A DNA stretch of 37,634 bases from Candidatus Zipacnadia bacterium (lineage in GTDB: Bacteria > Armatimonadota > Zipacnadia > Zipacnadales > UBA5352), in NCBI GenBank assembly GCA_029821265.1, contig JALGTR010000014.1, forward strand, positions 1-37,634, given 5' to 3'. Below the pieces are notes generated by a model that had not been told where the DNA came from, made no database searches, and worked only from the letters and a program-made list of their open reading frames with translations. Of the stretch, positions 2,999 through 27,835 are shown piece by piece (within the stretch, counting starts at the first letter, position 1; every line of letters starts with the position of its first letter). The translations under genes were made by a program, and so were the position numbers.

Positions 2999-3754
2999 TC
3001 AGAAGTTGTCGTCGATACCGCCGAAGTCGCCGCGGCTGCCATAGCCGCTGCTGCCGCGGCTTCCGAAGCTACTGCTCCCGTAGCCGCCGCGGCTGCCATA
3101 GCTGCTGCTGCCGTAGCCACCACGGCTGCTGTAGCTGCTGCTGCCGTAGCCGCCGCGACCGCCATAGCCGCCGCTCTGGCCGTACTGACTGCCGCCGTAG
3201 TATCCGCCGGCCTCGACGACTTCGCCGCCGAAGATTGCCGCCGCCATGTCAGCGCCCAGGTACTTCGGGAATATCAGCTCGAGCACTTCGACGCGCTCCT
3301 CATCCCCCTCGTCGTCCGCCGCCTGCGTTGCGCCCGGCACGTAGTTGCCAACCTGGCGCTCCGGTCGGGGAGCCTCGCGAGCCCCACCTGCCACCTGCGG
3401 CATGATCGCGGTGTCGCGGGCCTCACGCTGCGCCGGCTGCGGCCGCTCGCGGATCACGAAGCTGCCGTTCTGAGGTACAGCCATCAGGTCAAGCGGCTCC
3501 AGAACGCTCATCAAAGCCTGCTGTGGGGTGAGTTCAACCACGGATGCGTAGACCTGCGTATCCGGGTCCACCCCTTGTGCGAGCGTGTACTGGAGGCCGT
3601 AGCCCCTGCTCAGAAGCTGAAGCACCTGGCCCAGGGTCTCGCCCTGGAATGTCGCCGTGATGCGCGCTTCCTCATCCTGCGCCATCGCCGGTGCCGCTAC
3701 CAGACCCAGCACCAGCAGCGCTGCGACCATGAGCGCAACCGTTCTCGTACGCAT
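2999..3754 (-). CDS. Exported STN/secretin-N-domain-like protein with Gly/Ser/Tyr/Arg low-complexity C-terminus
   Basis: Signal peptide, then 'ITATFQGETLGQVLQLLSRGYGLQYTLAQGVD..VYASVVELTPQQALMSVLEPLDLMAVPQNGSFVI' (STN/secretin N0-like) and 'VEVLELIFPKYLGADMAAAIFGG' (secretin N-like). No secretin pore domain follows; the tail is (RGGYGSSSYGS)n. Confidence 0.75.
   Translation of the reverse strand: MRTRTVALMVAALLVLGLVAAPAMAQDEEARITATFQGETLGQVLQLLSRGYGLQYTLAQGVDPDTQVYASVVELTPQQALMSVLEPLDLMAVPQNGSFVIRERPQPAQREARDTAIMPQVAGGAREAPRPERQVGNYVPGATQAADDEGDEERVEVLELIFPKYLGADMAAAIFGGEVVEAGGYYGGSQYGQSGGYGGRGGYGSSSYSSRGGYGSSSYGSRGGYGSSSFGSRGSSGYGSRGDFGGIDDNF
3059..3157 (-). repeat. Three tandem 11-aa repeats RGGYGSSS[YF]xS
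   Basis: RGGYGSSSYSS-RGGYGSSSYGS-RGGYGSSSFGS, a 33-nt period in the coding sequence. Confidence 0.85.
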
Positions 3755-5350: not shown

Positions 5351-6304
5351 ATGTCGCTTCAGGACGTGCGAGTGGGCTTTGTGGGGTGCGGGCGTCACGC
5401 GACCGAAGTACTGCTGCCCGCGGTTCACGCCGCCGGAATGGACCTCGCCAGCGTCTGCGATCTCGACAGGCGTCGCGCTCAGCGCACCAATCGCCGCTTC
5501 GGCGCCTTTCGGCCCTACCAGGACCTGCGCAAAATGATCGACGAGATGGACCTCGATGCGGTGCTCGTCTGCGGGCCGCCTGAGATGCACTCTGAGGCGG
5601 CGACCGTCGCCCTCGAGCGCGGCTGTCACGTCTGGGTCGAGATGCCGGCCGCCCCCACAGCGGATGAGGCCGACAGCATCGCGCAGCTTGCCGCCACGCG
5701 CGGTCTCATCGCTCAGCCAGGCCTGATGATGCGCTTCGCTCCCGCCTACCGGCGCCTGCGCGATATCGTGACAGGCGAGGGCTTCGGTCGGGCGCTGGCC
5801 ATGAGCATCACCTGGTGGCCGCCCCTGCGGGATGGTCACGATGATCCTCTGCTCTTCGACGCGCCACACGTGCTCGATCTCGCCCGATTCATGCTCGGCG
5901 AGATCGAGGGCGTCTGTGCGCTTTGTGCCGCCCCACAACGCGCATCGCTCGCCCTCAGCTTCGCCTCAGGAGCGACGGGCACGATCAGCTTCGTCGCCGG
6001 AGCCGCCCGGTCGCATGAGAGCGTCTTCATCGCAGGCACCGACTCTCTGGCCAGCGCCGAGGACCGTCGAGACCTTGCAGTGCGCCGCCGCGATACCGAC
6101 GAGATCACGCTCTGGCGGGTCGATTCGGCCACCGCTGAAGGCCACGGGAGCACCGACCAGCTCGGCTACCTTCTGGAGATCGAGAGCTTCGGAAGGTCCG
6201 TGCTCGGGGAGGAAGAGCCTCGCGCGACCATGGAGGATGCCGCCGCGGCCATGCGCCTCGCCGAACGTGTCGCAGCGTCTGAGGAGGTGCCATCATCGCC
6301 ATGA
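5351..6304 (+). CDS. Gfo/Idh/MocA family oxidoreductase (second copy)
   Basis: Start at 5351 MSLQDVRVGFVGCGRHATEVLLPAV..; 'DAVLVCGPPEMHSEAATVALERGCHVWVEMPAAPTADEAD'. Confidence 0.9.
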   Translation: MSLQDVRVGFVGCGRHATEVLLPAVHAAGMDLASVCDLDRRRAQRTNRRFGAFRPYQDLRKMIDEMDLDAVLVCGPPEMHSEAATVALERGCHVWVEMPAAPTADEADSIAQLAATRGLIAQPGLMMRFAPAYRRLRDIVTGEGFGRALAMSITWWPPLRDGHDDPLLFDAPHVLDLARFMLGEIEGVCALCAAPQRASLALSFASGATGTISFVAGAARSHESVFIAGTDSLASAEDRRDLAVRRRDTDEITLWRVDSATAEGHGSTDQLGYLLEIESFGRSVLGEEEPRATMEDAAAAMRLAERVAASEEVPSSP

Positions 6305-6729
6305 CCGAACGGGATCAGACCGCAAGCGAAACACAGGATCGCCTCATCTGGCGCGTGCGTCGGGCGGGGGAGAACCCCGGCCTCTGCCTGTTGCTGATCG
6401 TCTTCGAAGCGGCACTCGGCTACGCGGTGAACATGTACTACACGGAGGCCCACGCCGCTTTTGCGGTGGTCTTCATCACCCTTGCGCTGCTCCCGTTCTA
6501 CGGCAGCTACCGCTACGAGCTCTGCCCGGAGAAGATCGAGGTTTTCGGGCCCCTCTACCACGCGGAGCACGACTGGAATGAGTTCGAGAGCTGGCGGACG
6601 TTCGAGGATGACCTGCGGCTGACGTGCAAGGACAAAGACTCCGTCCTCGTGCTCTTCGCTCCGCGCCGCCTCAATGATGTAGTGCAGTACGTCCAGCGGT
6701 ACCTGCCGCGTACGATCGAGGACTACTGA
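6301..6729 (+). CDS. Small membrane protein, two hydrophobic segments plus PH-like (bPH2-like) domain
   Basis: ATGA overlap with the preceding stop; 'YRYELCPEKIEVFGPLYHAEHDWNEFESWRTFEDDLRLTC..VLVLFAPRRLNDVVQYVQRYLP' resembles bacterial PH domains. Confidence 0.75.
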   Translation: MTERDQTASETQDRLIWRVRRAGENPGLCLLLIVFEAALGYAVNMYYTEAHAAFAVVFITLALLPFYGSYRYELCPEKIEVFGPLYHAEHDWNEFESWRTFEDDLRLTCKDKDSVLVLFAPRRLNDVVQYVQRYLPRTIEDY

Positions 6730-7034
6730 TGGACGAGGCCCAACGCGCTCGCGAGCGCGAGGTGCTTGAGCGGGTAGCGCGCGCCATCTGCAGGCGTGGG
6801 ATGTGTGTCCCGGCGATCTTCTTCTTCGAGTCGATCCTGCCCCTGAGCTTTCTCGCCGGGCAGGCTCTCGTATTCCTGCAGCCGATGATCAGCGTCCTCG
6901 TCAATGCCCCCGACTACGACGTCTTCGCCGAGGCGATCGAGGATCGCGACAATCTCCGGTGGTTCGTCGATCGCCTCGAGGAGCTCAACGACGATGCGCA
7001 GGACGACGAGGAACCGCCGGCGGACCGTGGATGA
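6729..7034 (+). CDS. Small hypothetical protein with one hydrophobic region
   Basis: TGATG overlap with the preceding stop; MDEAQRAREREVLERVARAICRRGMCVPAIFFFESILPLSFLAGQALVFLQPMISVL.. ends 5 bp before the next start. Confidence 0.7.
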   Translation: MDEAQRAREREVLERVARAICRRGMCVPAIFFFESILPLSFLAGQALVFLQPMISVLVNAPDYDVFAEAIEDRDNLRWFVDRLEELNDDAQDDEEPPADRG

Positions 7035-7038
7035 AGGA

Positions 7039-8922
7039 ATGCCGCGGCCCGGGCGCGAACAGAACCGCGATTGCATGGATACCCGGGGAGGCTTGCGTCC
7101 GCAGGTGTCGGAACAACACCAGCTTCGTTCGATTCTCGCAACAGACTGCGGCTCCACCACCACCAAGGCGATCCTGATCGAGCTGGTGGATGGGGAGTAC
7201 CGGCTGCGCGTACGCGGCGAGGCTCCCACCACCGTGGAGGCTCCCTACGAGGACGTCACCGTCGGCGTGCTCAACGCCGTTCGCGAGGTTGAGGAGCTTT
7301 CCGGCCGGCGTCTCGTCGAGGACGGGGAGATCATCCGCCCGCAGACCGGTGACGTGGGCGTGGACGCCTACGTCTCCACGAGCTCGGCCGGCGGTGGCCT
7401 GCAGGTGATGGTCGTTGGACTTGTGCGGTCGATGACCGCCGAGAGTGCGCAGCGCGCGGCGCTCGGTGCGGGCGCGATCGTCATGGACGTGCTGGCGCTC
7501 GATGACGGTCGGCGCAACTACGAGCGGATCGAGCGGATGCGCGAGCTGCGTCCGGACATGATCCTGATCTCCGGGGGGGTGGATGGTGGCGAGGTCCGCA
7601 AGGTCGTCGAGATGGCCGAGCTCGTCGCCGCCGCCAACCCACAGGCCCGGCTCGGCGCCGGATACGAGCTGCCGGTGATCTTCGCCGGCAACGAGGACGC
7701 GCGCGAGCCTGTGCGAGAGGCACTCGAGCGAGCCGCCCAGCTCACGGTCGTCGATAACCTGCGTCCGCGCATGGAGCGCGAGAACCTCGGCCCCGCGCGG
7801 GCTGAGATCCAGGAGCTTTTCCTCCAGCACGTGATGGCCCAGGCCCCCGGCTACCCGAAGCTTATGGGCTGGGCCGACGCGGACATCATGCCCACCCCGG
7901 CCGCCGTCGGCATGCTCATCGAAGCGGTCGCAGAGCGCGATGGCGTCAACGTCGTGGGAGTCGACATCGGCGGGGCCACAACCGACGTCTTCAGCGTCTT
8001 CGAGGGCACCTTCAACCGCACCGTCAGCGCGAATCTCGGCATGAGCTACTCGATCTCCAACGCCCTCGCCGAGGCCGGGCTCGGCAACATTCTGCGCTGG
8101 GTCTCGGAGCATCCGGATCCTCGACGGCTGGGCAATGATATCCGCAACAAGATGATTCGCCCCACCACCATCCCCCAGCAGCTCACCGGACTGAAGGTCG
8201 AGCATGGCGTTGCCCGCGAGGCCCTGCGGCTGGCCTTCGAGCAACACAAGCTGCTCGCGACCGAACTCAAGGGCGTCCAGCGGCAGCGCGACATCGCCGA
8301 CGCCTTCGGCGCGGCAGGCGCGGAGACGCTCGTGGACATGATGGCGCTGGACCTGATCATCGGCTCCGGTGGCGTGCTCTCTCACGCGCCGCGCCGCAGT
8401 CAGGCGCTGCTCATGCTGATCGACGCCTTCGAGCCCGAGGGCGTCACGCGGCTGGCAGTGGACAGCATCTTCATGATGCCGCAACTCGGCGTGCTGTCGA
8501 CGATATCCGAGGACGCGGCCACACAGGTATTCTACCGCGACTGCCTGATACCGCTCGGTACATGCATCGCGCCATCGGGCACCGGTCGGAACGGTCGGCC
8601 CTGCTGTCGGGTGACAGTCGAACGTCCCTCCGGCACCGAGGAGGTCGAGATGGCCGTCGGCGAGATGCGGCTTCTGCCGCTCGACGAGGGGCAGAAGGTG
8701 CGCGTGACCGTCGATCCGGTGCGCGGCTTCGATATGGGCGCCGGGAGCGGTCGTGCGATCAATGCCGAGGTCTCCGGCGGCGTTGTGGGGCTCGTTATCG
8801 ACTGCCGGGGCCGCCCGCTGCAGCTGCCTGAAGACGACGCGGAGCGCGCGGAGGCGATCAACCGCTGGAACGCCGCGCTGGACGTCTACCCCGCGGCCAC
8901 CGAGGCGGTGACCGCGTCATGA
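7039..8922 (+). CDS. GlmL/MutL-family ASKHA ATPase-like protein
   Basis: ATDCGSTTTKAILIEL, VDAYVSTSSAGGGLQVMVVGLVRSMTAESAQRAALGAGAIV, LISGGVDGG, FAGNEDA, VGVDIGGATTDVFSV, LIIGSGGVLSH are hallmarks of the GlmL/MutL family. The track start at 6904 reads through the upstream gene; ATG 7039 or 7075 is more likely. Confidence 0.9.
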   Translation: MPRPGREQNRDCMDTRGGLRPQVSEQHQLRSILATDCGSTTTKAILIELVDGEYRLRVRGEAPTTVEAPYEDVTVGVLNAVREVEELSGRRLVEDGEIIRPQTGDVGVDAYVSTSSAGGGLQVMVVGLVRSMTAESAQRAALGAGAIVMDVLALDDGRRNYERIERMRELRPDMILISGGVDGGEVRKVVEMAELVAAANPQARLGAGYELPVIFAGNEDAREPVREALERAAQLTVVDNLRPRMERENLGPARAEIQELFLQHVMAQAPGYPKLMGWADADIMPTPAAVGMLIEAVAERDGVNVVGVDIGGATTDVFSVFEGTFNRTVSANLGMSYSISNALAEAGLGNILRWVSEHPDPRRLGNDIRNKMIRPTTIPQQLTGLKVEHGVAREALRLAFEQHKLLATELKGVQRQRDIADAFGAAGAETLVDMMALDLIIGSGGVLSHAPRRSQALLMLIDAFEPEGVTRLAVDSIFMMPQLGVLSTISEDAATQVFYRDCLIPLGTCIAPSGTGRNGRPCCRVTVERPSGTEEVEMAVGEMRLLPLDEGQKVRVTVDPVRGFDMGAGSGRAINAEVSGGVVGLVIDCRGRPLQLPEDDAERAEAINRWNAALDVYPAATEAVTAS

Positions 8923-10058
8923 CGATGGCCGCGCAGACCCACGGATACACCCCTGGACTGCGCATCACCGAGCGCGCCGTCATCCGCCGCCTGCGCCGCC
9001 TGCCGCTGCCCGGCCGCGTGCACGTCGAGGAGGGACAGGACGTCGCGGCCGATGATCTGGTGGCCTCAACCGAACTGCCGGGGAACGTCGTGAACGTGAA
9101 TATTGCGCACGAACTCTCGATAAGCCCCGAGGACGTCAAGGACTTTCTGCTTGTCGAGGAGGGCGACGAGGTCGAGGCCCGGCAGATCATCGCCGAGAGT
9201 CGCGCGTTCTGGGGCCTCTTTCACTCCATCGCCCGCGCCCCGATCCATGGCACCATCGAGACGATCAGCGAGATCACCGGACAGGTGTTGATCCGCGGAG
9301 AGCCCATCGAGGTGGAGGTTGACGCCTACATAGACGGGACCGTGCGCGAGGTGCACGGCAACGAGGCAGTCCTTATCGAGACCCGCGGCGCTCTCATCCA
9401 GGGCATCCTTGGCGTCGGCGGCGAGGCCCACGGTCGCATAAAGATCCTCTGCGATGAGCCTGGCGAGGTCTGCACCGCCGATCTCGTGGTTGATGATTGC
9501 GAGGGGTGCATTCTCGTTGGCGGAGGGCGGGTGACCCTCGAAGCGTTGCATGCCGCACGTGAGGCGGGCGCCGTCGCGGTTGTTTCCGGCGCGATCGATG
9601 ACATCGAACTCGACGAGTTCCTCGGAGAGCCTCTCGGCGTCGCGATCACCGGCCAGGAGAGGCTCGGACTGTCTCTTATCCTCACCGAGGGCTTCGGGGA
9701 CACGCCCATGCGGCGCCGAACCTTCGAGCTGCTGGCAGACCGCGAAGGCGAGCGCGCCTCCGTCAACGGCGCCACCCAGATCCGCGCCGGAGTTATCCGC
9801 CCCGAGGTGATCGTGCCCGAGCCTGGCGCAACATGGGACGCCGAGACCGAACAGCCCGCCCTCGGCCTTTCGGTGGGCAGCCAGGTGCGCCTGATCCGTC
9901 CCCCCTTCTTCGGCCTGCTCGCCGAGGTCGTGGAGCTGCCCGAACAGCTTGAGCAGATCCCCACCGAGGCCCTTGTTCGTGTCGCGCGCGTGCGCCTCGA
10001 AGACACCGGCGAGGTCGTCACCGTCCCACGCGCGAACATGGAGATCATCGAGGAATGA
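8919..10058 (+). CDS. Conserved protein with RnfC/biotinyl-like barrel-sandwich segments (function unknown)
   Basis: ATGA overlap with the GlmL-like stop; 'PGRVHVEEGQDVAADDLVASTELPG', 'VEEGDEVEARQIIAES', 'APIHGTIETISEITGQVLI', and a C-terminal KOW-like 'VGSQVRLIRPPFFGLLAEVVEL'. Confidence 0.75.
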   Translation: MTMAAQTHGYTPGLRITERAVIRRLRRLPLPGRVHVEEGQDVAADDLVASTELPGNVVNVNIAHELSISPEDVKDFLLVEEGDEVEARQIIAESRAFWGLFHSIARAPIHGTIETISEITGQVLIRGEPIEVEVDAYIDGTVREVHGNEAVLIETRGALIQGILGVGGEAHGRIKILCDEPGEVCTADLVVDDCEGCILVGGGRVTLEALHAAREAGAVAVVSGAIDDIELDEFLGEPLGVAITGQERLGLSLILTEGFGDTPMRRRTFELLADREGERASVNGATQIRAGVIRPEVIVPEPGATWDAETEQPALGLSVGSQVRLIRPPFFGLLAEVVELPEQLEQIPTEALVRVARVRLEDTGEVVTVPRANMEIIEE

Positions 10059-11287
10059 ATCACCACCGCGTCGTGGCAAGTGCCCTCGCCCTGCTTTTGG
10101 CCGCCGGCCTGTGCGCGCAGCCGGTGGCGCCGTCGGACGTGCAGGCGAGCGACAACCCCGACGATGAGCGTGGCACCGTTCTTGACGTCAGCTGGACGCC
10201 GCCGCGCGAGCTGCCGGATGTTCCCGGCATGGTGCCGATCGGCCAGCAGGTTCTCTACCGCAAGGTCGGCGGCGAGATTCAGGCTGGCCCGCTCGTGCCG
10301 CTTGACGCCTCGTCGGCATCGCTGCCGGGGCTCAAACCCTGGCCGTGGCCAGCGTGGGAGGTCGCCGTGGCGATCGTTTGGGAGCCGGCCGAGCCGCTAC
10401 GGGCCGCTCTCGATGCCAGTCGCTGGACACTGCCCGCCCGCGGGGCGGTGCGCTCGCAGTTCACCGCGCCCGTGCGCCCGGTCGGCCGATGGTACGATCC
10501 GACCCTCACGAACATCCTGATCTCGGCACTGCTGATCTGCGCCATCGTCCTCGGCACGCTTTACGCGGTGCGCGGGCGCGCCGAGGAGATCTACATCCGC
10601 CCGATCGCCGGCCTCGAGGCCGTTAACGACGCCATCGGGCGCGCGACGGAGATGGGCCGGCCGATGCTCTACGTCTCCGGCCTCGGCGGCGTCAGCAACA
10701 TCGCGACGATCGCGGCCATGCTCATCCTCGGCCACCTCGCGCGTCGCGCGGCCGCGTATGAGACAGAGATCATCGTTCCGTGCAATGACCCGCTGGTCAT
10801 GGCGACCGAGCGCGAGATCGTGCGCCAGGCCTACACCGAGGCCGGCAAGCCGGACGCCTACCGGCCCGAGAACATCTTCTTCCTCACCGACAGTCAGTTC
10901 GGTTACGTCGCCGCGGTCGATGGCATCATGCTGCGCGAAAAGCCGGGGGCGAACCTGTACATGGGCTACTTCGCCGCCGAGGCGCTGATCCTCGCGGAGA
11001 CCGGTAACGAGACCGGCGCCATCCAGATCGCCGGCACCGACGCCGACACGCAGCTACCGTTCTTCATCACCGCCTGCGACTACACGCTCATGGGCGAGGA
11101 GCTTTACGCCGCCAGCGCCTACCTCTCACGCCACCCGCTGCTCGTCGCCCAGCTTCGCGGTCAGGACATGGCAAAGACGATCATCGTCGCCATCCTGATC
11201 CTCGGCGTCATCGCCGCGACAGCCGCCCTGTTCGGCGGCACCGTGGCCGAGTATGCGCAGCGTTTCGTGGGGTGGTTCGCAGCATGA
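10055..11287 (+). CDS. DUF6754-like membrane protein with N-terminal Fn3-like domain
   Basis: ATGA overlap; signal peptide, Fn3-like N-terminus (APSDVQASDNPDDERGTVLDVSWTPP), TM (ILISALLICAIVLGTLYAV), conserved 'YIRPIAGLEAVNDAIGRATEMGRPMLYVSGLGG', C-terminal TM. Family name from memory. Confidence 0.8.
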   Translation: MNHHRVVASALALLLAAGLCAQPVAPSDVQASDNPDDERGTVLDVSWTPPRELPDVPGMVPIGQQVLYRKVGGEIQAGPLVPLDASSASLPGLKPWPWPAWEVAVAIVWEPAEPLRAALDASRWTLPARGAVRSQFTAPVRPVGRWYDPTLTNILISALLICAIVLGTLYAVRGRAEEIYIRPIAGLEAVNDAIGRATEMGRPMLYVSGLGGVSNIATIAAMLILGHLARRAAAYETEIIVPCNDPLVMATEREIVRQAYTEAGKPDAYRPENIFFLTDSQFGYVAAVDGIMLREKPGANLYMGYFAAEALILAETGNETGAIQIAGTDADTQLPFFITACDYTLMGEELYAASAYLSRHPLLVAQLRGQDMAKTIIVAILILGVIAATAALFGGTVAEYAQRFVGWFAA

Positions 11288-11375
11288 GATGCCCGGCCCG
11301 CGTCCGCCTTACATCGCCTCGCGCTGGTGAAGCGATCTTCAGGACGGCCTGCCGCCTCGGGGCGGTGGTCGGCTC

Positions 11376-12053
11376 GTGAGGCTCCACGTGCCGCTCGTCA
11401 TCACCTTCCTCGCCGGCCTGTTCATGGCCGTGCAGTTCTTCGTCCCGCACGAGATCGGCGTCACCGTCTACCGTGGGATGCTTGACTGGGCGATGATCGT
11501 CGCATCGTTCGCACTGGTGCTGGGCATCTCCAGCCTTCTACGCACGCACTGGGAGAAGATACGCCGCCGCCGGCGGGACTGGCCCTACAGTATCGTCGCG
11601 ATCGTCTCGTTCTTTCTGATGTGCATCGTCGGCATCGGCTACGGCCATCAGCCGGGGACCGTATTCTACTGGATATTCGATTACATCCAGGTGCCGCTCG
11701 ATGCGACGATGTTCTCGCTGCTGGCGTTCTTCATCGCCTCGGCCGCGGTCCGCACCTTCCGCGCCCGCAGCGTCGAGGCCACGCTGCTTCTGGTCGCTGC
11801 GATCTTCGTGATGCTCGGGCGCGTCCCCAGCGCCCTCCTCGTGATGCTCGGCGACACGGGCGTCGGTCAGTGGCTGTATGACTTCATGCCCGACGCCTCC
11901 GAGTGGGTCATGAACGTGCCGACCGTCGCAGGTAAGCGCGGGATCATCTTCGGGGTGTCACTCGGCGTCATCGCCACCGCGCTGCGCATCATCCTTGGCA
12001 TCGAGCGCTCGCACCTCGGCGGAGGCGGCGGCGGAGGGGCGGTCGGACCATGA
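11376..12053 (+). CDS. Polytopic membrane protein of unknown function (GTG start)
   Basis: Multiple hydrophobic segments; ends in a poly-Gly stretch; stop overlaps the next start (ATGA). Confidence 0.75.
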   Translation: MRLHVPLVITFLAGLFMAVQFFVPHEIGVTVYRGMLDWAMIVASFALVLGISSLLRTHWEKIRRRRRDWPYSIVAIVSFFLMCIVGIGYGHQPGTVFYWIFDYIQVPLDATMFSLLAFFIASAAVRTFRARSVEATLLLVAAIFVMLGRVPSALLVMLGDTGVGQWLYDFMPDASEWVMNVPTVAGKRGIIFGVSLGVIATALRIILGIERSHLGGGGGGGAVGP

Positions 12054-12892
12054 GGATCTGGGACTGGCTTCTCGAGCTTGACCGCCGCTGGGTGTTCCTG
12101 GGCATCGCGCTTACCGTCGCGATACCAATCATCACCGTCTACACGCTGCCTCTCGGCAAGCCCGCGCCGCCCACGGAGATGGTCTACGATTACATCGAGA
12201 ACCTTGAGCCGGGCTCGGTGGTTCTCGTCTCGTTCGATTACGGCCCGTCCAGCATGCCCGAGCTTCATCCCCAGGCGATGGCGGTCGTCCGCCACTGTCT
12301 GCTGAATGATCTGCGCGTGATCTCGATCGCCCTCAACCCCCAGGGGACGGCGCTGGGCCAGGAGGTCATGAACACGGTCGCCGAGGACCTTGGGGCGGAA
12401 GAGGGCGTTCAGTGGGTCCACCTCGGCTACCGTCCGGGCTTCGGCCAGGTGATCCTGCGCATGGGGGAGAGCATCCCGCAGCTTTACACCACCACGCCCG
12501 ACGGTCGGCTCACGGCGGAGCTGCCGGTGATGGAGGGCGTGCAGAATTACGATGATATCGCGCTCGTGGTGGACTTCGCCGCCAGCGCTGTGCCCGGCAC
12601 ATGGCTGGCCTTCGCGCATGAGCGCTACGGCCAGCAGCTCGCGATCGGTATCACGGCCGTGATGGCCACAGATTTCTACCCGTATCTGCAGTCCGACCAG
12701 CTCGTCGGCCTGATCAACGGACTGAAGGGCGCTGCGGAGTACGAGGACCTGCTGGGCCTTGAGGGTGAGAAGGCCCAGGGCAAACTCGGCATGGCCGCGC
12801 AGTCGTTCGCCCACCTGCTGATCATCGTGCTGGTCGTACTGGGCAACATCGCGTATTTCGCGTCCGGCCGCCATCGCCGCCGTCGGCGGTAG
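12050..12892 (+). CDS. Membrane-anchored protein of unknown function, N- and C-terminal TM segments
   Basis: MRIWDWLLELDRRWVFLGIALTVAIPIITVYTL.. 'VVLVSFDYGPSSMPELHPQAMAVVRHCL' .. C-terminal TM 'LLIIVLVVLGNIAYFAS'. Confidence 0.8.
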   Translation: MRIWDWLLELDRRWVFLGIALTVAIPIITVYTLPLGKPAPPTEMVYDYIENLEPGSVVLVSFDYGPSSMPELHPQAMAVVRHCLLNDLRVISIALNPQGTALGQEVMNTVAEDLGAEEGVQWVHLGYRPGFGQVILRMGESIPQLYTTTPDGRLTAELPVMEGVQNYDDIALVVDFAASAVPGTWLAFAHERYGQQLAIGITAVMATDFYPYLQSDQLVGLINGLKGAAEYEDLLGLEGEKAQGKLGMAAQSFAHLLIIVLVVLGNIAYFASGRHRRRRR

Positions 12893-12923
12893 AGGCACAC
12901 CAACACTCGAAACGAGCATCATC

Positions 12924-13625
12924 ATGCCTGACGCAGCACCGCAGATCTTCGGACTCTCGACCGAGGTCATCGGCGTCTGGATCGCCACATTCCTGACGCT
13001 GGCGATCTTCAGCTTCCTGTACCGCGACAACCCCGTGTACAAGCTTGCCGAGCACATCTTTGTCGGCGTCTCGGCAGGCTACGGCGTGGTCATCGTCTAC
13101 CACGAGGCAGTCATCCCGCTGCTGATCAACCCGCTCTTCCGACCCGAACTGGCCGACCTCGAGAGCCCCAACTACATCGTCATCATCCCGGGCCTTCTCG
13201 GCCTGATGATGTTTAGCCGCTTCTTTCCGCGCTACGACTGGCTCTCGCGCTGGCCGATCGCCTTCGTCATGGGCCTCTCGTCGGGCCTGGCGATCCCCGC
13301 GACGGTGCAGACGAACCTGCTGCCCCAGCTTTACGCCACGCTCAATCCCATCCTGCCGCTGGGTGACATCGATCCGTGGACGGCCACCAGCAACTTCCTG
13401 CTTGTCGTCGGGGTCATCTGCACACTGGCGTACTTCTACTTCTCGCGGGAGCATGCCGGGGCGCTGGGTGTCGCGTCGAGGATCGGCATCTTCTTCCTGA
13501 TGGTGGCATTCGGCGCCAGCTTCGGTAACACCGTCATGGCCCGCGTCTCACTGCTGATCGGTCGCTTTCAGTTCCTCTACTACGACTGGTGGCAGGGCCA
13601 GGTCATGCGGCTATTCGGCGGCTGA
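12924..13625 (+). CDS. Polytopic membrane protein of unknown function
   Basis: 'SFLYRDNPVYKLAEHIFVGVSAGYGVVIVYHEAV' and several TM segments; last gene of the co-directional run. Confidence 0.8.
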   Translation: MPDAAPQIFGLSTEVIGVWIATFLTLAIFSFLYRDNPVYKLAEHIFVGVSAGYGVVIVYHEAVIPLLINPLFRPELADLESPNYIVIIPGLLGLMMFSRFFPRYDWLSRWPIAFVMGLSSGLAIPATVQTNLLPQLYATLNPILPLGDIDPWTATSNFLLVVGVICTLAYFYFSREHAGALGVASRIGIFFLMVAFGASFGNTVMARVSLLIGRFQFLYYDWWQGQVMRLFGG

Positions 13626-13639
13626 CCGCTCGCCCGGTC

Positions 13640-16597
13640 CTACCAGCCCCACCGCACGATGAACGGAACCTTCGGGAAAAGCGTCTTCAGCAGCGCCATC
13701 ACCGACGGACTGACCTGCGGCGAGATCTCTGTGCGCCGCTGCAGATAGCCCTCCAGCGGCGTCTCGCGGCCCGTGACGAAGCGCGTGATCGTCTCGTCAT
13801 CTGTGTGCAGGCTGACGTCGGTCGGACGCGGGTCTGCGTCCATCACCCGCACCACGCCCGCCTCGATCGCCAGCCCCGCCCTCAGGCGCCTGCCGAGCAC
13901 CATGATCCGCCCGCGCCACTCGGCGAACGGCGTGTCGGTGAGCCGGCGCTCGTACAGCGGTCGGATCTCGCTGAGCAGCGCCGTCAGGTCGCGGATGCCG
14001 AACATGTTGACGTCGCCGGTGCTGGTGATGGAGTACCCCGCGCGCGAGAGCACGTCGCGCAGCAGATGGGCGTCGGTTGACAGGTCGCAGCGGGCGCTTT
14101 GTGCGCCCGAATCCGCAAGCAACTGATGCAGCCGGGCAACCAGCGCCAGGCCGATCTCGGGTCTGTTGTCGGCCTGGCGATCCACCGCCACGTCGATGAT
14201 CCGGGCGTGCTCATCTGGCCCGGTCGTCGCCAGCGCCACGCCGATCAGGTTCCCCTCGCGCTCCGCCAGCGACGCCCGACTGCCCTCCCCGAGCTCGGGA
14301 ACCGGCAGTGGGGAGATGGTGAACGCGCCCTCGTGATAGTCGATCAGCAGCCGGCGCACCGCGTCGCGATCCCCGTCCGCCATCGGTCGAATCGTCACTG
14401 TGTCGGGAGGGCTGCAGGGCGTGCCGATGCTCAGCCGCTTGCTCGCCCTCTCCCGCTGGTCCATGTCCACGTATCCGAACTCCGCGTAGAGTGCGTGCGC
14501 GTTGTTACGTGTGCCGGTGTTGAGCGCGAAACACGAGCAGCGCATGGCTTCGTCGTGCTGCATCGCGGTCTCAAACGCGAGACGCGACAGCCCGCTGCGC
14601 CGCCACTGCGGGGAGGTATGCACCCAGTCCACGTAAAGCCGCCTCGCGAAGTTGCCGTGCGGAAACCCCGCCAGCCCACTCTCGCAGATCACGTTCGCGA
14701 CCTTGTAGCCCTCAACTACAGGATGGACCTCCAGCGTGTCCGTAATCTTCACATCAAGCTCACCGATCCGCTCGCCGTCCCTGTTCACGCCCGGCAGAGA
14801 GAGATCCGGCGCATCGACACCGTGCTTTGAGAGGAGGTGTCCGGCCATCAGCCGGAAACGCACGTCCTGTCGCGGCGCGAGCTCCACCAGCCGATCAGCA
14901 GCGTCCTCAATGCCCGCCGAGAGTGCCTGGAGCGCTGCCCAGGCCGCCTCCGCGTCATCCTCCCCGGCCATCAGCGTCTGGAGACGCTCCGTCGCTCCGG
15001 CATCCGATGCGCTCGACCGGCGGAATGCCTCAACCCGCTCTCGCGCATCCTCCGGCAGCGACGCGCGCTCCTCATCCGGGAGCCGCGCAAGGTCCGTCAG
15101 CGCCTCCATCCGCCGCGACGCCTCGCCATTCATCGCGCCCGCGACCAGCCGGGCCCGCAGCGCATCCGCAAGGCACTCGTCGTCGGGATCGATCAGCGGG
15201 AAGTCGTGGACAGTTGTGCCGATCCCGCGCAGCATCGGCGTCAGGTCCTCGCCTGCCGCGCGCGAGAGATACCACGCTGCGCGGTCGCTTTCCCAGGCGT
15301 AGGATCGCGGCAGCTCGTAGTCCTCGCGCCGGGGCGGCATGATCTCAAACAGCCGGCGCAGCAGGTCCTCGCCGTAGGCGCGCTCCAGCTCCTCGAGCAG
15401 CCACATGCCCTTCGGGTGCCATTGCAGCGTGGCCCAGTACATGCGTGCGAGGTCACAGGCGGTCCGATCCGGATCGGCCTCGGCCAGCAGTTCGCGGATC
15501 ATCGTCCGGCGCCGCCGGGCCTCATCCTCGTAGCCGAGGTGTTCGATGAAACGAAGCGCGAGGTGGCGCAGCAGGGTATACTCCGGCAGCAGCGTCACAA
15601 GGGTGCGCGCGGTGTCCATGTCGCGCATCTTCCATAGCATCAGTGAGAACGCGACGTTATATCCCAGCGCTGCATCCGCGCCGGCCGCGCCGATGACTGG
15701 ATCAGACTCCCACACGTCAGGGAAGACCGCCGACTGGAGCACCTCGATCTGCATCGGCGTCTCCCACCGGTCTCCGATGATCCCCCGCATGAAGTCGTCC
15801 GCCGCCCACACGAGGTCTGCGACGTCGCTGGCTCGCTCCGCCACCGGCCGATCGCACAGCAGTCGCAGGCGCCGCTGCTGGCAGACTACCGCGGGCTCGC
15901 CGACCTCCCCCTCGATTGCGCCCCCGTCACGTTCGCCGGCGCCTGCCGCCAGCCAGCGGAGCAGCGGCTCGGTATGCGCCAGCAGGTTCAGGTGGTCGCA
16001 CAACGACCCGAAGACGCATACCCGTCCGTCGCCGTATGTCGCCAGCGCAGCCAGCGGTTCACCGCTGTCTCGATGGGCCAGCAGCGGTCGTGCGCCATCG
16101 GGTGTGGCAAGAGGCGCCCACGTGCATATGCCGGGCCGCTGCGGCCCGAAGCCCTCCAGTACATCGTCAAGCAGCGTCGCGTCCTCGGGTCGGTACCCGC
16201 GTCGGAACTCGCGGTCGGGGCAGGTTGCGGCCGCACACTCCTCGGGCGCGAGGAAGCGGAAGCCCAGCCGCGTCGCGATCGCGTTCGCCGGAAGCTCAGA
16301 GGCGGGCGCATCTGCGATCAGCTCGAACCACGGGGCCGAGGAGGCCAGCAGCAGTCCGCCGCCGCCGGCAACGAACCGCTCGATCGCGTCAAGCTCGGCC
16401 GGGTCGAACTGCGTCGGGGCAAATCCGTCCACGATCGCCACGTGGTACCGTTCCAGCAGCTCGCTCGTCAGCCGCTGGCGGCAGATCGTGGCGCGGAAGG
16501 GGCCGCCGGCGAGCTTGCGTCTGGCCTCCCGCCAGCCCGAGTCGTGGAAGTGGTCAACGAGGACGCGCAGTGGCGCGTCCCGCGGTGGAAGCGTCAC
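13640..16597 (-). CDS. 985-aa multidomain protein: N-terminal ThuA/glutaminase-like region, degenerate M60-like middle, C-terminal tandem GNAT plus SCP2-like (Eis-like) region
   Basis: N-terminus 'LDAIERFVAGGGGLLLASSAPW'; GNAT-like 'ARRLYVDWVHTSPQWRRSGLSRLAFETAM..NAHALYAEFGYVDM'; second GNAT-like 'VTIRPMADGDRDAVRRLLIDYHEGAF'; C-terminal 'WRGRIMVLGRRLRAGLAIEAGVVRVMDADPRPTDVSLHTDDETITRFVTGRETPLEGYLQRR' (SCP2-like). Confidence 0.65.
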   Translation of the reverse strand: MTLPPRDAPLRVLVDHFHDSGWREARRKLAGGPFRATICRQRLTSELLERYHVAIVDGFAPTQFDPAELDAIERFVAGGGGLLLASSAPWFELIADAPASELPANAIATRLGFRFLAPEECAAATCPDREFRRGYRPEDATLLDDVLEGFGPQRPGICTWAPLATPDGARPLLAHRDSGEPLAALATYGDGRVCVFGSLCDHLNLLAHTEPLLRWLAAGAGERDGGAIEGEVGEPAVVCQQRRLRLLCDRPVAERASDVADLVWAADDFMRGIIGDRWETPMQIEVLQSAVFPDVWESDPVIGAAGADAALGYNVAFSLMLWKMRDMDTARTLVTLLPEYTLLRHLALRFIEHLGYEDEARRRRTMIRELLAEADPDRTACDLARMYWATLQWHPKGMWLLEELERAYGEDLLRRLFEIMPPRREDYELPRSYAWESDRAAWYLSRAAGEDLTPMLRGIGTTVHDFPLIDPDDECLADALRARLVAGAMNGEASRRMEALTDLARLPDEERASLPEDARERVEAFRRSSASDAGATERLQTLMAGEDDAEAAWAALQALSAGIEDAADRLVELAPRQDVRFRLMAGHLLSKHGVDAPDLSLPGVNRDGERIGELDVKITDTLEVHPVVEGYKVANVICESGLAGFPHGNFARRLYVDWVHTSPQWRRSGLSRLAFETAMQHDEAMRCSCFALNTGTRNNAHALYAEFGYVDMDQRERASKRLSIGTPCSPPDTVTIRPMADGDRDAVRRLLIDYHEGAFTISPLPVPELGEGSRASLAEREGNLIGVALATTGPDEHARIIDVAVDRQADNRPEIGLALVARLHQLLADSGAQSARCDLSTDAHLLRDVLSRAGYSITSTGDVNMFGIRDLTALLSEIRPLYERRLTDTPFAEWRGRIMVLGRRLRAGLAIEAGVVRVMDADPRPTDVSLHTDDETITRFVTGRETPLEGYLQRRTEISPQVSPSVMALLKTLFPKVPFIVRWGW

Positions 16598-16631: not shown

Positions 16632-17087
16632 CTACCCGCCCTCGGTGTGCCAATCGAAGGGGATCTCGGGATCGAACGGGTCGCGCCGAAGCTCGTCGGG
16701 ATCCTCGCGGTTGTAATGCTCGGTCGGAGCGTTCAGCATCACCGCGGTCCGGCCCTCAAGCGCCATGAACCCATGCCACACCAGCGGCGGGATCTGCACC
16801 ACGATCGGGTTCAGCTCACCGATGACCAGCGACATTGTCTGGCCACACGTCGGAGAGCCCTCCCGGTCGTCATACAGCCCCACCTTGGCATTCCCGAAGA
16901 GCACGCAGAAGCTGTCCGTCTGGATCTCGTGGCAGTGCCACGCCTTCACGATGCCCGGAAAGCACGCCGATACGTAGACCTGCCCGAAGTCGATGAATAT
17001 CTCGTCATCATCGCGCAGGATCTCCATCAGCCAGCCGCGGTCATCCACATGCCGCGTGAGCCTCTTAATCCGCACTCCGTCGATCAT
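16632..17087 (-). CDS. RmlC-like cupin (dTDP-4-dehydrorhamnose 3,5-epimerase family)
   Basis: 'DDRGWLMEILRDDDEIFIDFGQVYVSACFPGIVKAWHCHEIQTDSFCVLFGNAKVGLYDDREGS...VVQIPPLVWHGFMALEGRTAVMLNAPTEHYNREDPDE'. Confidence 0.88.
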   Translation of the reverse strand: MIDGVRIKRLTRHVDDRGWLMEILRDDDEIFIDFGQVYVSACFPGIVKAWHCHEIQTDSFCVLFGNAKVGLYDDREGSPTCGQTMSLVIGELNPIVVQIPPLVWHGFMALEGRTAVMLNAPTEHYNREDPDELRRDPFDPEIPFDWHTEGG

Positions 17088-18445
17088 GAGCCGTTCTCTC
17101 CCGCGATTCGCACGGCCGGCATCTGCACTCCCACGGCATCTCGTCCGAAGTACTGATTCGCCACGGCCGTAATGTCCTCGCGCGTCACCGATTCAGCTGC
17201 GGCGATCGCCTCGTCGGCACCGCCAACGCCAAACATCGCGCGCCGCGCGAGATACACCGCCTGTTGCGCCGGCCGCTGCGTGGCGAGCCGGTGCTTGTTG
17301 ATGACCCGTCTGCGCGCGCGCTGCAGCTCCTCGTCAGTCACCGACTGCGTCCGCAGCGCCCACAGGTGTCTGACCAGGCCCGCGCGCGTGCGCTCTACGG
17401 ACATCGGCGCGCACAGCGCATGCATCGCGATGTAGGAGTTATCAGCCTCGGGCACCGAGAGCGTGCCAACCGGGTAGTGCTCCTGCAACAGCCGCGAGGG
17501 AACCGCCAGACCCAGCGCCTGCAGCAGCCCCACGTCGCGTCGCAACCGCCCGCCGACGCCGCCCAGCAGCTCCGCGATCAGCTCGCCTGCCGCCCGCAGC
17601 TTGTCCCCGTAGCCCGGCAGCGGCGCGCCCACAACGAGCGAAGCCTGCACCAGTCCCGCGCTGTCGTCCACCTCCACCCGCGAGTCGCTGGGGAGGGCAG
17701 GCCACTGCGCGGGCTCAGGCGCCGGGGAGGTGGGCACCTGGCCGAAGACCTGCGTCACCGCACTCGTGATCGCCTCCGGCGTCATCGGCGCGACCACGCA
17801 CAGGAACGCGTTCGCCGGCACGTACTGCTCGTCCCGGAACTGCTGCAGCGCCTCCAGGGGGATCTCCGAGAGATGGGCGGGATCGCCCTGCAGCGGGCGG
17901 CCCATGGGGTGATCCCCGTACAGCGCCCTGCGGAACAGCTCGAACGTGGCCTGCACGGGAGCGGCGTGGGACATGTCCCAGCCGCGCTGCACCATCCGTA
18001 CCGCCTCAGCGAGCTCCTCCTCCGTGAGCTCAACGCCAAACGCCTGCCCCGCCAGCAGCTCCAGCGCCTCGCCAAGCTCATCGGTCTCTACCGCGACGGC
18101 GACCTCGACGAAGTCCCAGTCGGTGTTCACGTCAAAGCCCAGGGATCGCGGGTGGACAAACGCTGACAGCGGCCGTTGCGTCCCCTCGATGGCATCATGG
18201 GCCCGATTCACCATCGCCTGCTGCAGGACCGTTCGCGCGCCCTCAAGCCCTTCCGGCTCATCGGCGACCGACGACTCGATTACCAGCGCGATTCCCGAGA
18301 GGGTCGCCTGATCGCTCTGGGTCGCCAGCACCGTCAGGCCGTTGGGCAGCACCGTCTCGGCCGTCGGTCCCGCCCACGCTGCCGTCGTAAGCACGACACT
18401 CAGCATGACCATGGCCGCGAAGTGGAGGCTCTTCATCTCGCTCAC
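17084..18445 (-). CDS. M16 family peptidase-like protein lacking the HXXEH motif (non-catalytic subunit)
   Basis: Exported; 'TVLPNGLTVLATQS...' M16 fold pattern, but the position of HLLEH reads GARTVLQQAMV. Confidence 0.85.
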   Translation of the reverse strand: MSEMKSLHFAAMVMLSVVLTTAAWAGPTAETVLPNGLTVLATQSDQATLSGIALVIESSVADEPEGLEGARTVLQQAMVNRAHDAIEGTQRPLSAFVHPRSLGFDVNTDWDFVEVAVAVETDELGEALELLAGQAFGVELTEEELAEAVRMVQRGWDMSHAAPVQATFELFRRALYGDHPMGRPLQGDPAHLSEIPLEALQQFRDEQYVPANAFLCVVAPMTPEAITSAVTQVFGQVPTSPAPEPAQWPALPSDSRVEVDDSAGLVQASLVVGAPLPGYGDKLRAAGELIAELLGGVGGRLRRDVGLLQALGLAVPSRLLQEHYPVGTLSVPEADNSYIAMHALCAPMSVERTRAGLVRHLWALRTQSVTDEELQRARRRVINKHRLATQRPAQQAVYLARRAMFGVGGADEAIAAAESVTREDITAVANQYFGRDAVGVQMPAVRIAGENGS

Positions 18446-19785
18446 GCCTCCCCCGCCGCGCCCGGACGTGTCTCGGGCCGGATGATCGCCAGCGTGTATG
18501 CGTCGGGGTCCAGATACTCCTGCGCGACCTGCTGCAGCTTCTCAGGCGTGATCGCCCGGACGCGATCGATGTACTCCACGGCCAGCGTGTAGTCCGCTAT
18601 CGCCTCGTAAAAGCCGAGCGATCCTGCCTGATCGGCGTAGGATTCATTCGTGAACGCATACCCGATCTCCAGCACGCGCTTGGCCTCGGCAAGCTGCTCC
18701 TCGGTGAGCCGCTCGTTACGCAGGCGGTTGATCTGCTCGATGATCGCCGTGCGGGCCTCCAGCTCCTTGTCCGGAGGGGTCAGCGCGGTCACGATGATCA
18801 GGCCCGGATCGCGCTGGGTCAGGAAGTCGCAACTGGTCATTAGCGCCAGCCCCTGCTCGTTGAGCGCCTCGTGCAGCCGTCCGAGCTGCCCCTCCCCGAG
18901 GATGCTGTAGATGAGATCCATCGCACAGACGTCGTCGAAGTCTTCGACCTCCGGGGCGTGCCACGCGAATGACACGATCGTCGCGTCGCTCGGACGCGTC
19001 TCGACCGTCACGCGCACGTCCTCGAGCGGCGGCTCGGAGGGAAGCTCCGGCAGCGTCATCGGCTCGCCGGCCTTCTGCCCGAACAGCTCCTCGACTGTCG
19101 CTGTGAGGCCCTCCGGATCGACGTCCCCCACGACCACCAGCGCCATGTTCCCGGGCACGTACATCCGCCCGTAATAGTCCAGGAGATCTTCAGCGGTCAG
19201 CTCTGCGACCTGCTCCGGCGTGCCGCCGATCGGTCGTCCGTAGGGGTGCTCGGTGAAGGCGGTCTCCCACAGCAGGTCCTCCAGCGCACCGCCGGCCGTG
19301 TCCGCGACATCGATCAGCTCGCGAGCAACGATCTCGCGCTCGCGATTGACCGCGGCTGCTGGCAACTGTGGCTCCCAGACCGCCTCGGCCAGCAGCTCCA
19401 GCGATTCGGCGAGATACTGGCTGGCGACCGTCACCGTGATGCGCGTGAAGTCGCGGGTCGTGTTGGCGTTGATGTAGCCGCCCATCGACTCGATCGCCGG
19501 TCCGATCCGTTCGTTATCGCGCAGATCGATCGCCTCGAAGAGCATATGCTCGAGAAGATGTGCGGCGCCGACCTGTTCATCGGTCTCGTACGCCGAGCCT
19601 CCCCGAATGTAGAGCGCCGCCGACGCCACTCCCCACTCATCGTTGTCCTTGATGATCAGCCTGAAGCCGTTGTCCAGCGTCCGGTCGCTGATTCTGGACG
19701 GGTCGAGGATCGGGGCGGCGCCGGCGGTCGCGCTCAGGGCTGCCAGCAGCAGCGCGAGACCGAGCAGGCGCTTTATTCTGCGCAC
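18442..19785 (-). CDS. M16 family zinc metallopeptidase (HXXEH present)
   Basis: GTG start at 19785 preceded by GGAAGGAG; 'EQVGAAHLLEHMLFEAIDLR' plus downstream 'NREREIVARELID', 'YYGRMYVPGNMALVVVGDVDPE'. Confidence 0.92.
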   Translation of the reverse strand: MRRIKRLLGLALLLAALSATAGAAPILDPSRISDRTLDNGFRLIIKDNDEWGVASAALYIRGGSAYETDEQVGAAHLLEHMLFEAIDLRDNERIGPAIESMGGYINANTTRDFTRITVTVASQYLAESLELLAEAVWEPQLPAAAVNREREIVARELIDVADTAGGALEDLLWETAFTEHPYGRPIGGTPEQVAELTAEDLLDYYGRMYVPGNMALVVVGDVDPEGLTATVEELFGQKAGEPMTLPELPSEPPLEDVRVTVETRPSDATIVSFAWHAPEVEDFDDVCAMDLIYSILGEGQLGRLHEALNEQGLALMTSCDFLTQRDPGLIIVTALTPPDKELEARTAIIEQINRLRNERLTEEQLAEAKRVLEIGYAFTNESYADQAGSLGFYEAIADYTLAVEYIDRVRAITPEKLQQVAQEYLDPDAYTLAIIRPETRPGAAGEA

Positions 19786-19892
19786 GTGGAATCTCCTTCC
19801 TTCGCCGTCAGACCCCAGAGGATCAGGGGAAGTGCCTCGCCGAAGTCCGCCTGACGGAAGTGCCTCATGCGAGCTGTCTCTGGTACGAGAGC

Positions 19893-19934
19893 GGGCCCCT
19901 CCATGATGGGCCATCGCGTGGCCCAATGGGGCCC
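19893..19934. other. Long imperfect inverted repeat in a divergent intergenic region
   Basis: GGGCCCC-tCCAT-ga-TGGGCCA-tcgcg-TGGCCCA-ATGG-GGCCC; nested arms with small bulges. Confidence 0.6.
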
Positions 19935-22598: not shown

Positions 22599-22750
22599 AG
22601 CGCGTGATCGGGCGGAGGGCTCAGGCCCGCTCGAGTGGAACCACCCGACAGTGCCGGGACCGCGAAGCGCCCGGACCGTGGGCGGCGCGTGTCCTGCTCC
22701 GCCCACTGCTGCGAGCTGCGCCACAAGTCGTCGCGCTGACAGGAGGCCAT

Positions 22751-24181: not shown

Positions 24182-24206
24182 CACCACGGTGGGGAGGACG
24201 CGAACC

Positions 24207-27656: not shown

Positions 27657-27670
27657 GCGCAGACCTATCC

Positions 27671-27701
27671 GGATGCGGCCACCGGTGCTCCCGCCGCATC
27701 C
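27671..27701. terminator. Terminator-like hairpin
   Basis: GGATGCGG-N15-CCGCATCC just after the DUF4091 gene. Confidence 0.55.
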
Positions 27702-27707
27702 GCAGAT

Positions 27708-27735
27708 GCGCCCCACCCCGGCCGGGGTAGGGCGC
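27708..27735. terminator. GC-rich near-perfect 28-bp palindrome
   Basis: GCGCCCCACCCCGGCCGGGGTAGGGCGC, one mismatched pair. Confidence 0.5.
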
Positions 27736-27835
27736 ACGTCGCTCGTGTCGGCCCATGCCCCCGGCACGAAGGGATTCGCGGATCGCGCGGATAACATACT
27801 CGCATACCCGAAACTGACGCGTTAGGAGCATCCCC

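Follow-up and report, generated by a model that had tools for sequence, protein, structure and literature searches.

The closest described relatives of the ATPase considered here are proteins of the MutL superfamily of ASKHA ATPases. One of these, Or-4, is linked to ornithine degradation. Classical GlmL genes are placed between glmS and glmE, and GlmL/MutL has been described as a chaperone that reactivates glutamate mutase (PMC4682846). The window that we analyzed, a stretch of 37,634 nucleotides from a genome of Candidatus Zipacnadia (Armatimonadota; GenBank assembly GCA_029821265.1, contig JALGTR010000014.1), carries a gene of this superfamily in a run of eight plus-strand open reading frames (ORFs) at 6301 to 13625, all of which were confirmed:

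g1, 6301 to 6729, plus strand: small predicted hairpin protein with two transmembrane (TM) segments and a cytoplasmic C-terminal part; no Pfam family
g2, 6729 to 7034, plus strand: small protein with no clear TM segment; no Pfam family
g3, 7039 to 8922, plus strand: ASKHA ATPase of the MutL/GlmL superfamily (PF13941, E = 2e-124)
g4, 8919 to 10058, plus strand: soluble barrel protein with an RnfC_N/NqrA_N-like barrel-sandwich, a small alpha/beta part, and a C-terminal KOW domain
g5, 10055 to 11287, plus strand: predicted signal peptide, Fn3 domain outside, TM segment, cytoplasmic alpha/beta DUF6754 domain (PF20539), and C-terminal TM segment
g6, 11376 to 12053, plus strand: predicted 6-TM membrane protein; no Pfam family
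g7, 12050 to 12892, plus strand: two predicted TM segments flanking a domain of ~220 residues predicted to lie outside; no Pfam family
g8, 12924 to 13625, plus strand: predicted 6-TM membrane protein; no Pfam family

The eight consecutive genes with start/stop overlaps described in the first-pass annotation were confirmed from the DNA, the ORF coordinates, and the order in relatives. An ATGA overlap at 6301 to 6304 and a TGATG overlap at 6727 to 6731 were read in the DNA itself, and further overlaps at 8919 to 8922, 10055 to 10058, and 12050 to 12053 were taken from ORF coordinates. The order g2 to g8 is kept in related Armatimonadota, which indicates that these ORFs are genes and not chance reading frames. 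Only two products matched curated families above cut-off, namely, MutL/GlmL (PF13941) and DUF6754 (PF20539), and a search for viral relatives found none. At least five products had been expected to be membrane embedded, and family-averaged hydropathy bore this out for g1 (two TM segments), g5 (signal peptide plus two), g6 (six), g7 (two), and g8 (six), with topology assigned from hydropathy and the positive-inside rule. Of the two small membrane proteins proposed earlier, g1 stands, whereas g2 has only a borderline hydrophobic stretch and no convincing TM segment.

The g3 product matched PF13941 at 416 bits (cut-off, 27), with the ASKHA motifs DCGSTTTK and DIGGATTD conserved and intact and with ~120 extra residues at its C terminus; these residues showed no relation to g4 in profile-profile comparison. 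A GlmL-like gene had been placed at 7039; the ORF holds, but its true start is probably downstream, at ATG 7075 or GTG 7105, because conservation in the family begins at ILATDCG. The reading of g5 as a DUF6754-like protein with an Fn3 domain was upheld by a strong match to PF20539 (366.7 bits; cut-off, 27; E = 6e-110) and by agreement among profile search, an AF2 model (pLDDT, 82), and Foldseek on the N-terminal Fn3 domain. The Foldseek matches listed for this model were nearly all Fn3, and none named a fold for the DUF6754 alpha/beta domain. Identity in the DUF6754 core domain is roughly 50 to 57% between phyla. Profile-profile comparison gave no signal of paralogy between g5 and g7 or between g6 and g8, and searching the PDB with the g3 and g7 sequences returned nothing useful.

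Recurrent synteny across several phyla in mutase-lacking genomes, anticipated in the first-pass annotation, was found, together with g3-g4 fusions and co-occurrence of genes that are unlinked. Far from lacking synteny elsewhere, which had been raised as possible counterevidence, g5-g6-g7-g8 follow one another without a break in 67 of 80 loci, with about a dozen phyla represented and tandem copies frequent; individually, g6 is present in 75/80, g7 in 73/80, and g8 in 69/80. The dozen or so phyla that carry the system are mostly uncultured bacteria. In many genomes g3/g4 lie apart from g5 to g8. In Cloacimonadota and Fermentibacterota, relatives of g3 and g4 are fused into a single protein of ~950 amino acids (aa). 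The position of g2 varies by phylum, adjoining g3 in some and g5 in others, and other Armatimonadota and Eisenbacteria-type loci likewise keep g1 upstream of g2. DUF6754 occurs in 129 of the 151 Armatimonadota genomes sampled and, in the phylum to which genome G183 belongs (locus label Zixiibacteriota), in each of the 98 genomes searched, with up to six copies per genome. A GlmL match was present in 28 of 30 DUF6754-bearing genomes from other phyla or orders, and both G183 and G197 have five DUF6754 copies and a single GlmL. Across the 151 Armatimonadota, where the three genes are mostly unlinked, g3, g4, and g5 occur together and are missing together: joint absence was observed in 15 genomes for g3/g4 (1.7 expected) and in 14 for g3/g5 (2.3 expected), and all three were missing in 14, counts in which absences are imperfect since most genomes are MAGs.

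The association of g3-g4 with g5 to g8 is well supported. We consider it probable (roughly 0.6) that the operon encodes one undescribed two-module system, in which a cytosolic ATPase/barrel pair docks on a membrane complex and cycles to act on it. Module A would be cytosolic and would consist of the ASKHA ATPase g3 with its barrel/KOW partner g4. Module B is a predicted inner-membrane complex of g5, with Fn3 outside and the alpha/beta domain inside, the 6-TM proteins g6 and g8, and g7, whose large domain would lie outside; the small proteins g1 and g2 appear to go along with both modules. The g3-g4 pair probably docks at the cytoplasmic face, on the DUF6754 domain, and its ATP-dependent conformational cycling could assemble, remodel, or gate the complex, while the outer domains would engage an envelope component or cargo. 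A single ATPase pair could serve several membrane cassettes. Assembly of all these parts into one physical complex, the docking side, ATPase cycling, and a transport or envelope function are what we infer.

It is also conceivable that g3-g4 serves g5 to g8 as a chaperone for assembly or repair and stands outside their working cycle, a reading that we find unlikely but give real weight. The chaperone role described for GlmL/MutL on glutamate mutase, the service of several cassettes by one GlmL, and the frequent separation of g3-g4 from g5 to g8 all agree with it; strict co-occurrence and the frequent shared operon suit a stoichiometric partner equally well.

A redox-driven ion pump akin to Rnf or Na+-NQR is far less probable. 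Several polytopic membrane subunits and weak RnfC_N and NQRA_N matches in the g4 family are in its favor: 8 of 12 family members matched RnfC_N (best, 7e-6), and the window's own g4 did so below cut-off (E = 0.0013; 19.2 bits against 25.6). The likeness of g4 to RnfC drawn at first holds for the N-terminal barrel-sandwich fold and not beyond it, the match to full-length RnfC (TIGR01945) being 11.1 bits against a cut-off of 245.95. Unlike RnfC and NqrA, whose N-terminal domains it weakly resembles, g4 carries a KOW domain at its C terminus and gave no sign of a flavin/NADH or SLBB domain, and the Fe-S motif CxxCxxC was found in none of 52 family members. No other Rnf/Nqr subunit was matched among the operon products, and the partner of g4 is an ATPase. 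We reject the pump, as the resemblance amounts to weak fold-domain similarity. A role for g4 as a lipoyl or biotin carrier found no support: the family lacks a conserved attachment lysine (no alignment column with ≥75% lysine).

We also give very little credence to a part in glycine metabolism through glycine decarboxylase. In WOR-3/Stahlbacteria, Eisenbacteria-type, and Fermentibacterota loci, the gene gcvPB directly precedes g2-g3 or g1-g2-g3; in an Edwardsbacteria locus, gcvPB and g2 are separated by about 4.5 kb. However, gcvPB, the independent control for the co-absence counts, was distributed independently of g3 and g5 in the 151 Armatimonadota (Fisher P = 1.0), and no gcv genes were detected near window-type loci. 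With adjacency seen and co-occurrence absent, the link was rejected.

Scarcely credible is a locus accessory to an adenosylcobalamin-dependent mutase that GlmL, acting as a chaperone, would reactivate, as membership of g3 in the MutL family and the glmS-glmE setting of classical GlmL might suggest. The mutase-lacking context noted at first was borne out: glutamate mutase subunit E was found in 0/41 relatives (the window's own genome included) and as one weak match in 151 Armatimonadota genomes, and methylmalonyl-CoA (MM-CoA)-type mutase was found in 0/41, with working controls. A Lys-AminoMut_A search, run without a positive control, gave no match. The neighboring cobalamin mutase that might have been expected in most genomes was looked for and did not appear, and the DxHxxG B12 motif is conserved in none of the eight operon families. 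In addition, g3 falls below the cut-offs of NCBIfam GlmL (NF040745; 224.9 bits against 475) and Or-4, and its clade is deeply separated from mutase-linked GlmL (support, 100/99) in a tree that does not give a direction and hence does not bear out recruitment from a mutase system. A second MutL match in the window's own genome was weak and below cut-off (21 bits), in an ORF resembling a hydantoinase-type protein. Mutase absence and the separate clade led us to reject this reading. Chance adjacency of unrelated genes, to which the splitting of modules in some genomes might point, is strongly disfavored and hardly plausible given cross-phylum synteny, the natural g3-g4 fusion, the company that g2 keeps with either module, and co-absence of g3, g4, and g5 despite being unlinked.

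No paper on DUF6754 and no account of such a system was found in the open literature searched. A conserved system of this reach would imply a basic process that the model bacteria searched do not have. Tentatively, and with less than even confidence, we propose that many little-studied phyla possess an envelope machine of a new class: a modular inner-membrane complex of DUF6754 and three membrane families without names, which a dedicated MutL-type ASKHA ATPase and its barrel partner would drive or gate, several cassettes sharing one ATPase. The results also suggest that GlmL-like proteins of the g3 clade are misnamed if annotated "glutamate mutase L," and such misnaming would skew metagenome predictions of B12-dependent glutamate fermentation.

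In comparison with GlmL/MutL and Or-4, g3 shares the MutL superfamily ASKHA core with its phosphate and adenosine motifs but is longer (~600 versus ~460 aa); unlike GlmL/MutL, it belongs to a separate clade, occurs in a genome without the mutase, and has as its partners a barrel protein, g4, and the membrane cassette. PilM/FtsA-type actin-fold proteins act on membrane complexes, and g3 may work in a like manner, as an ASKHA protein in the cytosol at the service of a membrane complex; the analogy is one of operation, since g3 is of another ASKHA family and none of the operon products matched a pilus or division gene. As for g5, it is a clear member of DUF6754, a family without known function that is here set in a multigene system with a topology model.

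An ORF listing of the window recovered all eight of the consecutive plus-strand genes that the first-pass annotation had placed at 6301-13625 (here g1 to g8). The start/stop overlaps claimed at 6301 and 6729 were seen in the DNA itself (ATGA and TGATG), and the ORF coordinates imply the other three (8919, 10055, and 12050). Transmembrane (TM) segments are from family-averaged hydropathy, and families are from Pfam.

6301-6729, plus strand: g1, two TM segments, no credible family
6729-7034, plus strand: g2, zero to one TM segment, no credible family
7039-8922, plus strand: g3, GlmL/MutL-like ATPase, no TM segment, MutL (E = 2e-124)
8919-10058, plus strand: g4, barrel protein, no TM segment, RnfC_N below threshold
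10055-11287, plus strand: g5, signal plus two TM segments, DUF6754 (PF20539; E = 6e-110)
11376-12053, plus strand: g6, six TM segments, no credible family
12050-12892, plus strand: g7, two TM segments, no credible family
12924-13625, plus strand: g8, six TM segments, no credible family
2999-3754, minus strand: predicted secreted protein, GGYGSSSYGSRG-type repeats abundant in the C-terminal tail
13640-16597, minus strand: protein of 985 aa carrying GNAT acetyltransferase domains, convergent to the operon and also adjoining it in some family relatives (L023, L025, L029)
17084-19926, minus strand: adjacent pair of M16-family peptidase genes with a start-to-stop overlap
22418-29398: glycoside hydrolase genes (GH32 N-terminal-like/GH43-like; GH123 with a CBM_4_9 domain), then an aminoglycoside 3-N-acetyltransferase-like domain fused to a xylose-isomerase-like TIM barrel

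These matches bear out the earlier GlmL/MutL-like and DUF6754-like labels, and g3 falls under the NCBIfam cutoffs of GlmL, Or-4, and glmL_fam. The g3 alignment begins at ILATDCG, which makes 7075 (ATG) or 7105 (GTG) a more probable start than 7039. The "RnfC-like" label for g4 holds as a resemblance to RnfC_N, at a sub-threshold score. In the AF2 model of g4 (pLDDT 86, pTM 0.78), the N-terminal region is rich in beta structure and is followed by a small alpha/beta part; the C-terminal domain is again beta and matches KOW domains of SPT5 and NusG. Neither Fe-S motifs nor a conserved lysine was found in the g4 family, which argues against roles as an RnfC-type electron carrier and as a lipoyl or biotin carrier, respectively. 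The g5 model (AF2; pLDDT 82, pTM 0.60) runs from an N-terminal helix through a beta domain, a TM helix, and an alternating alpha/beta domain to C-terminal helices; sequence and Foldseek support the beta domain as Fn3. Many DUF6754 residues are ≥97% conserved (e.g., GRATEMG, QxAGT, QxPFF, and GEE). The positive-inside pattern suggests that the Fn3 domain of g5 and the domain of g7 lie outside and the DUF6754 domain inside.

Of 41 genomes searched among close relatives, with that of the window counted in, 36 matched g3, and the g2-to-g8 order is kept in most of the 20 relatives' contigs where the contig reaches far enough, a few stopping early. In two genomes (G014, G022), g4 to g8 occupy a separate contig, and conservation of g1 and the upstream oxidoreductase is best within the window's own family. 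An alignment scan of named genomes gave at least 479 DUF6754 relatives, and the best 80 loci were surveyed. They belong to records of Armatimonadota, WOR-3/Stahlbacteria, TA06, Coatesbacteria, Eisenbacteria, Fermentibacterota, Latescibacterota, Poribacteria, Nitrospirota, Zixiibacteriota, Cloacimonadota, Edwardsbacteria, Planctomycetota, and Methylomirabilota. Of these 80 loci, 75 have a profile match to g6, 73 to g7, and 69 to g8; g5 to g8 are uninterrupted in 67, and g2-g3-g4 lie directly upstream of this cassette in loci of Armatimonadota, Eisenbacteria, Nitrospirota, Methylomirabilota, and Planctomycetota; the synteny across phyla named in the first-pass annotation as support was thus found. 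More than one g5 ORF occurred in 22/80 loci; in most of these the entire cassette is repeated in tandem, and in some only g5 or g7 is present in an extra copy. At least one of the 22 (L052) may be a split ORF. DUF6754 was found in none of 14 well-known control genomes. It was present in 98/98 genomes of the phylum of G183 (locus labeled Zixiibacteriota), often in five copies. G183 and G197 have one GlmL match apiece, and the sharing of a single ATPase among several cassettes would be consistent with a chaperone or a common engine. Some Cloacimonadota DUF6754 proteins (L087:7823-10780 and 13012-16119; L094, L108, L122) reach ~1,000 aa, with a long N-terminal region preceding DUF6754 and extra copies adjoining a g5-to-g8 cassette.

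In other Armatimonadota classes, the usual cluster is g1-g2-g5-g6-g7-g8, and g3 and g4 are located elsewhere, at times adjoining each other. Among 151 Armatimonadota genomes, g3 was absent from 16, g4 from 16, and g5 from 22 (two g5 entries, G164 and G172, being filled in by inference), and all three were missing in 14. Shared absences exceeded expectation for g3/g4 (15 versus 1.7) and g3/g5 (14 versus 2.3). They span several families (f6, f11, f14, f28, f19, and others) and so probably do not reflect a single event; Fisher P values take no account of kinship and are indicative only. The negative control gcvPB (glycine decarboxylase P-protein subunit 2) was independent of g3 and g5 (Fisher P = 1.0) and did not co-occur with the system in Armatimonadota. 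In several phyla, gcvPB lies directly upstream of g2-g3 or g1-g2-g3 (L165:6701-8170; likewise L155, L157, L160-L163, L166-L169, L060, L064, L074, L084, L086, L101, L174), at a greater distance in L171. GlmL was matched in 28 of 30 genomes chosen via DUF6754 loci; on the contigs retrieved, nearly all of these loci had no type-1 g3 beside them. Proteins of ~950 aa in Cloacimonadota and Fermentibacterota fuse a GlmL domain to g4-like barrels (Pfam; g4 profile, E = 2e-45 and 8e-40), and two genomes encode an unfused pair of this second type side by side. Finally, g2 adjoins g3 in WOR-3 and g5 in other Armatimonadota. Co-absence, GlmL in DUF6754 genomes, the fusion, and g2 placement together indicate that the cytosolic g3/g4 and membrane g5-to-g8 modules belong together. 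The second GlmL type (~920 to 990 aa; L184:9138-12017, L066:17762-20551, L185, L187-L191) is fused to, or adjoins, two g4-like barrels; most genomes with it also encode the 600-aa type, and no mutase was recognized in its neighborhoods.

GlmL/MutL has been described as a chaperone that reactivates glutamate mutase (PMC4682846), and the operon could accordingly be read as a mutase locus. Glutamate mutase E was found in 0/41 genomes first searched and, as a weak match, in 1/151 Armatimonadota; methylmalonyl-CoA-type mutase was found in 0/41, with working controls, and a Lys-AminoMut_A search, run without a positive control, was empty. The DxHxxG B12 motif is conserved in none of the eight families, in line with the earlier claim that the operon encodes no mutase or B12-binding subunit. 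Classical GlmL genes, in plasmid records, adjoin glmS and glmE. A GlmL tree separated classical sequences (6), with support of 100/99, from the fused (9) and window-type (32) groups, the last spanning many phyla on short branches; long branches in classical and some fused sequences restrict finer claims. The lack of glutamate mutase E and methylmalonyl-CoA-type mutase in the 41 genomes, the missing B12 motif, and the separate GlmL clade argue strongly against a mutase locus.

We favor one ATPase-barrel-linked inner-membrane system, at a probability of roughly 0.6; that it is a true transport or envelope machine is somewhat less likely than not. In the most economical reading, g5 to g8 would form an inner-membrane complex on whose cytoplasmic DUF6754 face the g3-g4 pair docks, nucleotide-driven conformational change in the pair would assemble, remodel, or gate that complex, and its outer domains may touch an envelope partner. 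In the open literature searched, DUF6754 is nowhere mentioned, and the papers retrieved around GlmL concern mutases or are irrelevant; an earlier description may exist in subscription papers or preprints. Docking of an actin-fold protein on a membrane complex is seen with PilM and FtsA, and likening g3-g4 on g5-g8 to them is no more than an analogy. Two protein families of the system already bear database names, but no known system has the same composition.
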